Of a DNA stretch of 64,000 nucleotides, positions 2,742-9,688 are shown in pieces (position 1 is the first letter of the stretch; each line of letters begins with the position of its first letter). The stretch lies in NCBI RefSeq assembly GCF_018326425.1, contig NZ_AP024601.1:3088001-3152000 (forward strand), in the 5' to 3' direction. Under the pieces are notes generated by a model. The model made no database searches. It saw nothing but the letters and a program-made list of their open reading frames with translations, and had not been told where the DNA came from. The position numbers and the translations under genes are program-made. The stretch is from Polycladomyces abyssicola (lineage in GTDB: Bacteria; Bacillota; Bacilli; Thermoactinomycetales; JIR-001).

Positions 2742-4421
2742 TCACATACTGCCCGTTCCCCCATTCGGTTGGGGAGTCCCCCCCGACCCTGTGGTTCCTT
2801 GCGAACTGGCATCCGTCCCCGTTGAGTCCGAACTGCCCGAATCGCCGGTTCCGCTAGTCGTCCCGTCTGTTCCAGTAGTACCGGTATCGGTACCAACATC
2901 TCCCGTGCTACCGGGATCAGTCCCGGTACTGCCGGTCGTTCCGCCAGTGGATTGTCCAGCGTCTCCACTGCTGCTGCCCGTACTTCCCATATCCGTTCCG
3001 CCGGTGCTCCCCGTCATACCACTGGTATCGCCTCCAGCCTGACCACCGGTATCTCCGGCCGTGGCGTCGGCTCCAGACAAATCACCGGTTTGCCCGTCCG
3101 ATCTGTGGGATGAGCCGGAATCACCGCTGTCAACCGTACCGTCACCGGTTCCTGAATCGTTTTTCGAGGAGTGATGCGAATCCGGACGATTGTAATCCGG
3201 CGGCAACTCGATGTGGTCCGACGGTTGGCCCGGTGTGACCGATTGTTCGGGCGGCAAGCGTTTGGAAGCCGGTTTTACCGGATTGCGGTCCACTTTCACG
3301 TCCGGCGTTGAATAGATTTCCACAGTCAGAGCATCCGTCTTGAGCTTCGTACGAATGACGACCGGGGCATTCAGGTTGTTCTTGAAACGAAAATCGGGTT
3401 CGTTCCAGGCCACGGTAGCATCCCTGCCTGCCGGAACATAAGTGGGGGTTTTGCTGTATGAAAAACGAGATAAGACCTCCAATCCCGCGTTGTCCACGCA
3501 GTTAAACAAAGTGGATGAAGTTTGAGAAACGCCGCCCCCCACTCCCTCGCTGTATTCGCCCTGCACGATTTTCGTCACTGGTTCGTATCCCCGTTCTTGC
3601 GTCCGTTGACCCACCGTTTGGTTGAACGAAAATACATCTCCCGGATTCAACACCACGCCGTCGATTGCGCGACTGGACAGTCGGATGTTCGCCGCTCGAC
3701 TTCGGTTGTCCGGATTGAAATAGGTCGTGTACTTGCCGATCCGTTGTCGGTCCACCAGTTGTAATTGTTCCTCTGTCACCTTGGGAGCTTGGGGAATCAT
3801 GGGGATCTCTTGCGGGCGGTTGACGATTTTGGGTATGCGGGAAATCCACTCATTCTCAATCACATCGGTATCCATCACCATACCGGAACGGGAGGGTTGA
3901 ATCGGATCACCGAGCCGTTTCATCCTGGCATCTACGGCCGGCTTGTCCACTTCCTTCTTCACCAATTTCAACCATAATCCCAATTGGCGTCGGTTGATGG
4001 TATCCGGATTTTTTCCGTCATAACCGACACTTTTTAGATCCAATTCCCAAGTTTTTCCACCGTGCGTCAGAATCAGTTCCGAAGGTTGAAACAAATCACT
4101 AAACCCGTAAACACCGACCAGTGCGAGGAGGAGCAATGCCACCAACATGATGCCCATTCTCTTTTTTTGTTTTCGTTTGTAGGCTTGGAGTGCCCGCCTA
4201 ACGGCAAGTTCCGTTTCGTTATCCTCCACCACCGCCAGAGCGGTCGGTGCTTGACGTACCAATTCCTCATAAGCCTTCTGGATCTCCAAGAGCTTTCTGG
4301 CCGCATCACGCGAAGAGTTCACATCGGGATGATACTTTCGCACTTGCTGGCGATACGCTTTTTTGATCTCTTCGATCGTGGCGTCCTGGCGAACCCCGAG
4401 AATGCGGTAATATTTCTCCAT
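2742..4421 (-). CDS. J-domain / VanW fusion membrane protein
   Basis: The product has about 560 residues. Residues 1-68 are a J domain with the HPD motif (residues 32-34 in KYHPDVNSS), normally a DnaK partner. A Lys/Arg-rich stretch and one membrane segment follow (about 85-110, MLVALLLLALVGVYGF). The outside part holds a VanW-type domain (about 235-375) with GDVFSFNQTVG and GVGGGVSQTSSTLFN. From about residue 400 there is a long Ser/Thr/Gly/Asp tail of low complexity, typical of a wall-spanning or exposed tail. The start is uncertain: ATG 4421 or TTG 4424, with GGAGGT 8-11 bases upstream. The inferred topology puts the J domain in the cytoplasm and VanW outside. The function of the fusion is unknown. 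Confidence 0.85.
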   Translation of the reverse strand: MEKYYRILGVRQDATIEEIKKAYRQQVRKYHPDVNSSRDAARKLLEIQKAYEELVRQAPTALAVVEDNETELAVRRALQAYKRKQKKRMGIMLVALLLLALVGVYGFSDLFQPSELILTHGGKTWELDLKSVGYDGKNPDTINRRQLGLWLKLVKKEVDKPAVDARMKRLGDPIQPSRSGMVMDTDVIENEWISRIPKIVNRPQEIPMIPQAPKVTEEQLQLVDRQRIGKYTTYFNPDNRSRAANIRLSSRAIDGVVLNPGDVFSFNQTVGQRTQERGYEPVTKIVQGEYSEGVGGGVSQTSSTLFNCVDNAGLEVLSRFSYSKTPTYVPAGRDATVAWNEPDFRFKNNLNAPVVIRTKLKTDALTVEIYSTPDVKVDRNPVKPASKRLPPEQSVTPGQPSDHIELPPDYNRPDSHHSSKNDSGTGDGTVDSGDSGSSHRSDGQTGDLSGADATAGDTGGQAGGDTSGMTGSTGGTDMGSTGSSSGDAGQSTGGTTGSTGTDPGSTGDVGTDTGTTGTDGTTSGTGDSGSSDSTGTDASSQGTTGSGGTPQPNGGTGSM

Positions 4422-4424
4422 CAA

Positions 4425-7900: not shown

Positions 7901-8137
7901 TTATGCCATCCGCTCCAGGCGTTCCAACCGGTGCAAAATGTCATCGATCACTTCACGATTGACCGCTTGCGCTTTGGCTCTCTCCAGTTCCTCCTTCAAA
8001 CGCTCGTTCTCCTCCAACACTTCCTCATAGTTTTGGATCACCAAGTCCAAAAACTCATCCACCGCTTGCCGGGAATATCCTTTTCGCTCGCGCGGGAAAT
8101 CCTTGTTGAAAATGTCTTTGGGCGTTAAACGTTCCAT
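7901..8137 (-). CDS. gpsB: GpsB-like DivIVA-domain cell division protein
   Basis: The product has 78 residues. Residues 1-50 are a DivIVA N-terminal domain (LTPKDIFNKDF...GYSRQAVDEFLDLVIQNYEEV), followed by a short coiled coil. The C-terminal motif DDILHRLERLERMA resembles the FDILKRLSNLE end of Bacillus GpsB. GpsB binds the membrane near the septum and couples penicillin-binding proteins to division. It is somewhat shorter than the 98-residue Bacillus protein. GGAGGAG precedes the ATG, and a good promoter lies at 8186-8214. Confidence 0.85.
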   Translation of the reverse strand: MERLTPKDIFNKDFPRERKGYSRQAVDEFLDLVIQNYEEVLEENERLKEELERAKAQAVNREVIDDILHRLERLERMA

Positions 8138-8214: not shown

Positions 8215-8326
8215 TAGAGTAAATATTCGTATAAAAAGAAAAAAATGAGTGGTTTATTCTGTACAAATCAGTTTTTCTGTGATATCGTAAATCCGCCGCA
8301 ATAACGTGGAATGAAAGGGGATACGG

Positions 8327-9385
8327 ATGGAAGAGGAACGTCCCGTCTGGCGGCGCTATGTGGAATTCGTTCTCCGTGCCATCGTATTCTGTTTGGCTCT
8401 GCCATTTTACTTGATTGTGACTTTTCCCCGTTGGTGCTGGCATCATATGCTGTACCCATTTTTCCGGTGGATCGGTCGCTCTTTGAGTGCGATCGGGCGA
8501 TGGTGTTGGCGATGGTGCATTGTCATACCTATTCACTGGGCATGGAATCATCTCATCACCACCCCGGTGAGATGGGTATGGAAGCGGATTGTGATCCCTA
8601 TTTCACGTTGGTCCTCCCAAGTGTTGATCTGGTTGTGGCATCATCTGATCGTTTCTCCGCTTACGCGATTCTTCCGCATCATCGCGGCTCTCGTCTGCTG
8701 GCTGTGGCCGGTGTTGGTGTCGATTGCAAAGTGGGTGTGGCGATTCGGACTGGCTGTCCCGCTGTCATGGATTTGGCACAGATGCATCGTCCCCCCGATT
8801 CGTTGGCTGTTTAACGTTGCTTTTCCCGCGCTGTATCGGTTGTGGCGTATTTGCATCCTTCTCCCCATTCAGTGGATATGGCAGTCTGTCTTGCTTCCAC
8901 CGTTACGGTGGGTTTGGCGACACGCTGTTATACTGCCGCTTCTGTGGATTTGGCAAGGAATCCGTATCTTGATTCCTTGGATCTGGCATTATGCTATCCT
9001 ACTTCCCATCGGCTATATCTGGAGAGCGTGCCGGCGCTTGTTTATTGAACTTTCATATATATCCAAACAAATCTGGAACCTGATCGCCAGGGTCGGAAGA
9101 TGGATATTCGGTCACCTTCTCATTCCTTTTTTCCGTTGGCTGTGGTTATATGTGCTACGCCCACCTCTCTCGTGGGTTTGGTGGGTCACCCTTTGGATCT
9201 ATCGCGGGTTGAAATGGTTGCTGGTTCACGGAATATACCGACCTCTTCGGTGGATTGTGATTCATGCCATGATTCAACCGGGTCGATTGATCTGGCATCA
9301 TATCCGAAAAACGGTGAAACTGTGCCGGCAATGGTGTAAAGAGCTTTCGAACGCTTTGAAGGAAATATGGACGGGACGACATTGA
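8327..9385 (+). CDS. Trp-rich 12-residue-repeat membrane protein
   Basis: The product has 352 residues, 44 of them Trp (12.5 percent). The body is a degenerate tandem repeat of about 12 residues, of the form W-x-W-(K/R/H/N/Q)-x-x-(I/V/L)-x-x-P-(I/L/V)-R. Clear copies are WAWNHLITTPVR (71-82), WVWKRIVIPISR (83-94), WIWHRCIVPPIR (148-159), WIWQSVLLPPLR (183-194) and WVWRHAVILPLL (195-206). W-x-W pairs occur at 71, 83, 136, 148, 183, 195, 207, 218, 271 and 283. Acidic residues occur only at both ends and once near 241; the body is cationic and hydrophobic. ATG 8327 has AAAGGGG seven bases upstream. It is surely membrane-associated, but I recognise no family. The alternating Arg/Trp spacing is too short for ordinary transmembrane helices unless two repeats make one helix. 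Confidence 0.85.
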   Translation: MEEERPVWRRYVEFVLRAIVFCLALPFYLIVTFPRWCWHHMLYPFFRWIGRSLSAIGRWCWRWCIVIPIHWAWNHLITTPVRWVWKRIVIPISRWSSQVLIWLWHHLIVSPLTRFFRIIAALVCWLWPVLVSIAKWVWRFGLAVPLSWIWHRCIVPPIRWLFNVAFPALYRLWRICILLPIQWIWQSVLLPPLRWVWRHAVILPLLWIWQGIRILIPWIWHYAILLPIGYIWRACRRLFIELSYISKQIWNLIARVGRWIFGHLLIPFFRWLWLYVLRPPLSWVWWVTLWIYRGLKWLLVHGIYRPLRWIVIHAMIQPGRLIWHHIRKTVKLCRQWCKELSNALKEIWTGRH

Positions 9386-9472: not shown

Positions 9473-9688
9473 ATGGGTGTTTTGTACGATATTGCGCAAC
9501 TGGCCAAAAAAAATGACGTCAGAGCGCGAATTATGCTGCGGACCATGCTGCTTTCCAACCTTACCAACGTCCCTTTGCAAAAACATCCCCGCCTGAACCA
9601 CGCCAAACATCAGCCGGCAGCTCGTGTTTTGGATAGGACAACATGTGATGGGGTTCAGTCGGAGCTGTTTGCCAAAAAAACTTTTTGA
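9473..9688 (+). CDS. Small hypothetical protein
   Basis: The frame encodes 71 residues beginning MGVLYDIAQLAKKND, preceded by a textbook AAAGGAGG ribosome site. The C-terminal half is basic and of no known family. A strong terminator lies about 95 bases downstream. The N-terminal part looks like an amphipathic helix. The good ribosome site and terminator are the only support; composition is not telling. Confidence 0.5.
   Translation: MGVLYDIAQLAKKNDVRARIMLRTMLLSNLTNVPLQKHPRLNHAKHQPAARVLDRTTCDGVQSELFAKKTF

Follow-up and report, generated by a model that had tools for sequence, protein, structure and literature searches.

A tryptophan-repeat protein of Polycladomyces abyssicola and its family in Bacilli: a predicted membrane-interface helix with a unit resembling that of phage tape measure proteins

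Indolicidin-like antimicrobial peptides are short, secreted and rich in Trp, Pro and Arg. Trp also marks repeats in much larger proteins: the published repeats of phage tape measure proteins span 11 or 18 residues and are recognized by their Trp or Phe, and the membrane role of the hydrophobic regions of these proteins is debated (PMC3271669, PMC5099701). Perilipin 4, alpha-synuclein and the apolipoproteins form giant amphipathic helices from 11-mer repeats, folded as a 3-11 helix (PMC5889406), and Plin4 is described as weakly hydrophobic and without bulky residues (PMC8064757). The window analysed here, a stretch of 64,000 nucleotides from Polycladomyces abyssicola, encodes a protein that recalls each of these systems in part.

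The features of the gene are listed in Table 1. It occurs in single copy in the genome, and its ribosome site is normal, as the initial annotation had read it. The protein contains 44 Trp, 24 Pro, 36 Arg, 8 Lys, 15 His, 7 Glu and no Asp (K/R/H total, 59). Of the seven Glu, one is internal (residue 240) and the others are close to the ends, which agrees with the description of the acidic residues as "almost confined" to the two ends. There are 15 W-x-W pairs, compared with 5.4 +/- 2.0 in 20,000 shuffles that preserved composition; the highest count in any of these was just 15. Among the lags, 12 gives the highest autocorrelation of Trp (z 7.8), followed by 2, 23 (z 4.5) and 35 (z 3.7), and Pro gives a signal at lag 12 (z = 3.9). 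The Trp-rich W-x-W repeat with a period of about 12 residues, first noticed from the sequence alone, is thus confirmed. The pairs follow each other at 10-12 residues in the regular stretches, with breaks of 19, 23, 35 and 53. A profile made from the units of other family members gave the protein 130 bits (its own shuffles, 5.0 +/- 5.0), and the full unit profile placed 22 units on it. No tandem repeat is left at the DNA level within the gene, and the units are therefore old.

Table 1. Features of the Trp-repeat gene and its divergent neighbour, in positions of the window.
Feature	Position	Strand	Description
Divergent neighbour, 78-aa DivIVA-domain (GpsB-like) protein	7901..8137	-	PF05103 E 1.7e-16
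Ribosome-binding site AAAGGGG	8314..8320	+	6 bases 5' of ATG; read in sequence
Trp-rich repeat protein ORF	8327..9385	+	Intact, 352 aa, ATG start
Most transmembrane-like stretch, residues 14-33, FVLRAIVFCLALPFYLIVTF	8366..8425	+	Lowest Hessa sums; fits family N-terminal motif RGIxFxxYFPxYLI; proposed membrane anchor
Repeat units 1-5 (FPRWCWHHMLY ... PVRWVWKRIVI)	8423..8596	+	Unit profile
Repeat unit 6, VLIWLWHHLIV	8621..8653	+	Unit profile
Repeat units 7-14 (IAKWVWRFGLA, PLSWIWHRCIV, ... PLRWVWRHAVI, PLLWIWQGIRI, LIPWIWHYAIL)	8723..9001	+	Unit profile
Repeat units 15-22, less regular (ACRRLFIELSY ... FFRWLWLYVLR, PLRWIVIHAMI, PGRLIWHHIRK)	9026..9310	+	Unit profile
Polar, charged C-terminal tail (TVKLCRQWCKELSNALKEIWTGRH)	9311..9382	+	Translation; family C-terminal KPxxxWhkxxF region

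To judge from its sequence, the protein belongs to a small, as yet unnamed family of stand-alone chromosomal proteins in Bacilli. The initial annotation had proposed a search for homologues in which the 12-residue register and the positions of Trp are conserved; this is the case in 17 intact members, and the lag-12 Trp signal is present in 17/17. They are distributed patchily across the order of the window and two other families of Bacilli, and some of their hosts are spore-forming soil bacteria. Members were found in Paenactinomyces guangxiensis, Shimazuella alba and four further genomes of the window's order, and also in family f9; family f17 contributed a single genome, with a member of 106 aa. 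From their appearance, f9 and f17 may be Paenibacillaceae and Brevibacillaceae. Matches were obtained in 10 of the 399 genomes of a class-wide sample and in 13 of 247 genomes sampled from f9, one of the latter (G515) being a tape measure protein, and a phylum-wide sample of 249 genomes held no member other than the window's own. No model among the Pfam, NCBIfam and PADLOC profiles covers the family, and the PDB gave no match to it by sequence or by fold. The window protein found nothing in a single-protein scan of genome contigs. A mobile origin was rejected, as a Shimazuella-group member used as query found nothing in phages and plasmids at E 1e-3 and viral contigs gave no match either.

Members range from 106 to 352 aa with about 5-22 units. 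One profile finds 206 units across the family, at a dominant spacing of 12 and also at 19-20, and the repeat period is about 11.7-12 residues. The unit consensus reads P(0.47)-L-[R/S]-W(0.63)-[L/I/V]-W(0.62)-[K/R]-[Y/H]-I-L-x, the next unit following about 12 residues on. The N-termini of the members share an RGIxFxxYFPxYLI-like motif, and their C-termini the motif KPxxxWhkxxF. One relative in the Shimazuella group lacks exactly one 12-residue unit. The family is under purifying selection: when the window gene was paired with its orthologue in the same-genus genome G002, dN/dS was 0.27 in one half and 0.37 in the other; it was about 0.2-0.27 in three f9 pairs, and four f9 orthologue pairs of 61-95% identity retained 19/19, 16/16, 17/17 and 16/16 Trp.

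The gene is dispensable in the genus of the window, since it is decayed in both same-genus genomes searched. The halves of the G002 orthologue are 85% and 70% identical to the window protein, and two bases are missing near codon 199, a frameshift that could be an assembly error. The second genome, G001, has lost a large internal part of the gene, and the remnant still lies beside the DivIVA gene. Remnants in three further genomes (G480, G490 and G609) suggest that the gene was lost repeatedly. Taken together, these broken copies are what a functionless relic would leave behind, namely a decaying tape measure fragment of an old prophage. We give this explanation the slightest chance of all those considered, since dN/dS is below 1, all or nearly all Trp are kept, the terminal motifs are conserved across families and no phage genes surround the loci whose flanks were read. 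In G002, the out-of-frame continuation past the frameshift (L002:1477-2589) is open for about 170 codons; the alternative frames of the Trp-repeat gene are generally long and open. A 71-aa ORF (MGVLYDIAQLAKKNDV...; window 9473-9688, plus strand) with a good Shine-Dalgarno sequence lies just 3' of the repeat gene, and its start is kept in G001, where it adjoins the decayed copy. It has no Pfam match.

The initial annotation knew of no family with this pattern. This did not hold, as phage tape measure proteins appear to carry the same unit in their Trp/Pro repeats. When the window protein was compared by tblastn with 50,697 phage records, 117 records matched up to an E of 10, with best values of 1e-4 to 3e-4, and all 60 of the records sampled evenly down the ranking were annotated tape measure proteins. 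Neither the shuffled nor the reversed window protein matched any phage record. A second family member matched 131 records; the 20 matches listed were all tape measures, two of them under other names (endolysin, minor tail protein). The family profile A4 scored three tape measure proteins at E 1.4e-13, 8.9e-10 and 4.1e-8, values to which large bias corrections apply, and did not score 90 locally shuffled or 3 reversed tape measure versions. The unit profile found 4-10 units per tape segment compared with 0.02 in shuffles; its background was only 14 hits of at least 10 bits in 218,704 positions of other ORFs. In the reciprocal search, the tape segment of L055, a profile hit in f9 with the units WLWQNVLVP, WLWKSVLVP and FLWNNVLKP, was run against 42 genomes of the order and retrieved only the Paenactinomyces family member (E 3e-4). 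By its PHROG match (phrog_1535, E 5.9e-146), L055 is a genuine tape measure protein, whereas the window protein matched phrog_8927 at no better than E 0.0044, with no stretch passing alone. A Foldseek search against viral models also returned mainly tape measures, the best E of 0.0034 being below significance.

The siphophage tape measures used for comparison included those of Gordonia phage Sixama, Tsukamurella phage TPA2 and Corynebacterium phage BFK20, together with PHROGs 8927, 6090 and 1535. Similar to the family, they have alpha-helical repeats that gain and lose units and are marked by Trp or Phe at about three-turn spacing, and the unit hxWhWxxhhxP can be read in both (WLWNNVIKP in a tape, WLWKRVIVP in the family). 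In other respects the two differ. Family members have 106-352 aa, whereas the tapes have about 800-2000 (typically about 700 or more). Their units are spaced at 12 and 19-20 residues, compared with 11 and 18 in published tapes (PMC5099701) and 19, 26 or 30 in those examined here. They are strongly positive with few acidic residues, whereas the tape segments are near neutral (14-17 KR and 13-18 DE per 200 aa). They have N- and C-terminal motifs of their own and no tape measure N- or C-terminal domain, and their genes stand on bacterial chromosomes amid housekeeping genes, with no phage tail gene module at the loci whose flanks were read. That the window protein is itself a tape measure was rejected on these grounds (length, missing tail genes and tape domains, spacing and charge).

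The resemblance does not prove common descent, because short repeat motifs can converge. Both the shortness and the repetition of the common unit, and the differences in spacing, net charge and terminal domains given above, fit a family that arose independently under the same helical constraints, with Trp and Pro every three turns. Against this convergence, the similarity depends on sequence direction, survives composition controls and is nearly exclusive to tape measures among phage proteins; we nevertheless rate its chance as a good one, if below even, and it is compatible with the interfacial helix proposed below. We think it distinctly less probable, if well worth considering, that bacteria domesticated the repeat block of a phage tape measure as a membrane protein in its own right, in which the modular tape would serve as a cationic helix of adjustable length, studded with Trp, to coat or brace the inner membrane. 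If such a descent were true, a tail part would have turned into a cellular membrane protein. The aromatic residues of tape repeats have been proposed to bind tail chaperones (PMC3271669, PMC5099701), and a bacterial protein with the same unit could act as an anti-phage decoy, which by imitating the tape would capture the chaperones of tail assembly or the subunits of the tail tube and so disrupt the building of tails. The patchy distribution and repeated decay would suit a decoy; yet no defence-gene neighbours were seen, PADLOC gave no match, and the strong positive charge and interfacial hydrophobicity suggest a membrane partner instead of tail proteins, so that we regard it as highly improbable. 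Whatever its origin, the family is an unnamed one with a clean 12-residue grammar, linked to tape measure Trp repeats of debated membrane role, and its short members (106 aa, 5 units) could serve as a tractable model of the tape helix and its possible membrane binding.

Long helices were predicted by AlphaFold, at residues 2-62 and 71-219 in a model of pLDDT 81 and at 7-32, 34-161 and 166-348 in a model of pLDDT 71. They run unbroken through the prolines with no turns between units; the alignment comprised three sequences and pTM was 0.24-0.31, so the models do not fix the overall packing. The hydrophobic moment is optimal at 91-95 degrees per residue (z 6-9; 8 members), and the basic residues recur with a period of 3.85-3.9 in 16/17 members. 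A beta-strand reading of W-x-W was discarded, as no moment signal was seen at 160-180 degrees and AlphaFold predicts helix. On the Hessa scale, a simple scale and not a full topology predictor, each protein of the family has 0-3 candidate spans, or 0-1.0 per 100 aa, compared with 0.9-2.1 per 100 aa in four polytopic controls; its values are lower than those of three of the four. Candidate spans are few because Pro and Arg/Lys recur about every 12 residues. The mean Wimley-White interfacial value is -0.12 to -0.30 per residue, compared with -0.09 to +0.06 in the polytopic controls and +0.24 or more in the soluble ones. Of the initial description as a membrane protein, affinity for the membrane is therefore likely, as predicted from the interfacial hydrophobicity.

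We favour, with slightly less than even confidence, a long, cationic, proline-kinked amphipathic helix that is anchored at its N-terminus and lies in the interface of the inner membrane as a tape coating or stiffening it. Because the Hessa propensity is low and the Wimley-White interfacial values are favourable, a helix with its anchor at the N-terminus and the rest in the interface is preferred to hairpins of two units. Each unit would add three turns to the helix. The basic positions 3, 7 and 11 would form one stripe, flanked on both sides by Trp 4 and 6, and Pro, Leu and Ile at positions 1, 5 and 9 would make up the opposite face; this layout, three turns of about 3.9 residues, agrees with the moment optimum and the basic-residue period. 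The N-terminal hydrophobic segment would hold the protein in place, with the helix in the head-group zone and the basic stripe towards the anionic lipid head groups. We place the helix on the cytoplasmic face of the membrane on the basis of the positive-inside rule. The tape, of variable length, may coat or stiffen the membrane. Two points count against the proposed geometry. Three turns of an ideal alpha helix take 3.6 x 3 = 10.8 residues and the 12-residue period is wider, so a straight stripe needs underwinding, which each Pro kink would have to provide; moreover, nearly the whole circumference of the protein is hydrophobic, a property also compatible with insertion.

The initial annotation had suggested that two repeats make one membrane-crossing hairpin. 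A multi-spanning protein of this kind, in which two 12-residue units form a crossing helix or re-entrant hairpin, for example as a small channel or transporter scaffold, would explain why the octanol-scale free energy favours burial in 295 of the 334 19-residue windows of the protein and why some members have K/R/D/E-free runs of up to 19-31 residues. The uninterrupted helices of the AlphaFold models and the few Hessa spans tell against the hairpin, and the basic residues form a helical stripe and not alternating loops. We judge such a protein to be unlikely. The mixture of Trp, Arg/Lys and Pro, suited to the membrane interface, is also that of indolicidin-type peptides, and the cationic units with their interfacial values could be those of a membrane-active peptide precursor or a self-limiting membrane toxin. 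However, indolicidin-type peptides are short and secreted, whereas here the units are joined without conserved cleavage sites in one long ORF conserved over the long term, and no transporter, protease or immunity gene recurs beside the family. This makes a peptide or toxin very improbable.

The proposed interfacial helix resembles in design the 11-mer helices of perilipin 4, alpha-synuclein and the apolipoproteins. Like them, it would be long and built from repeats, make three turns in each unit, show a single polar stripe and vary in its number of units, and the coating of lipid surfaces is what we propose for the Trp-repeat family. The differences are that the 11-mer helices are eukaryotic, and that the units of the family have about 12 residues, are packed with Trp and contain about one Pro each. 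No sequence relationship with these proteins was seen, and the 11-residue period of the synuclein/perilipin type was not found, the period being about 11.7-12 and the moment optimum 91-95 instead of 98 degrees.

The neighbours of the window gene are genes for DivIVA, an FMN reductase, a PaaX-like protein and an Fe-S protein. The position next to gpsB given by the initial annotation is correct in that the gene adjoins a DivIVA-domain ORF, but the adjacency appears incidental: apart from the window it was seen only at the decayed copy in G001 and at no other locus examined. A co-function with gpsB was dropped because synteny is not conserved. In the Shimazuella group the neighbours are, by inspection, asnS-like and dnaD-like genes. 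None of the loci examined has a partner common to the lineages, so context assigns no pathway. As two relatives adjoin tryptophan catabolism genes, control by a riboswitch or T-box was considered, and no Rfam match was found near 18 loci. No consistent promoter across loci pointed to sporulation or other regulated expression, and no clear promoter was seen in the sequence before the window gene; several relatives have TATAAT-like boxes (by eye) behind a terminator.

At L057:5304-8014 and seven other loci of the f9 genus g63, the order bacA/uppP - Trp-repeat gene - YkuD L,D-transpeptidase is conserved, a possible hint of the cell envelope, and a terminator-like hairpin closely precedes the repeat gene. 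The two relatives at L024:3604-6459 and L010:8746-9471 (G016, Paenactinomyces) stand beside genes of the kynurenine pathway (tryptophan 2,3-dioxygenase, kynureninase and a cyclase-like formamidase). The proximity of a Trp-rich protein to Trp catabolism is probably due to chance; the Paenactinomyces dioxygenase ORF beside the repeat gene looks broken. Elsewhere in the window, the minus-strand ORF at 2742-4424 encodes 560 aa in which an N-terminal DnaJ domain is combined with a hydrophobic segment, a VanW domain and a long tail rich in Gly, Ser, Thr and Asp, and reads as an unusual J-domain-VanW fusion.
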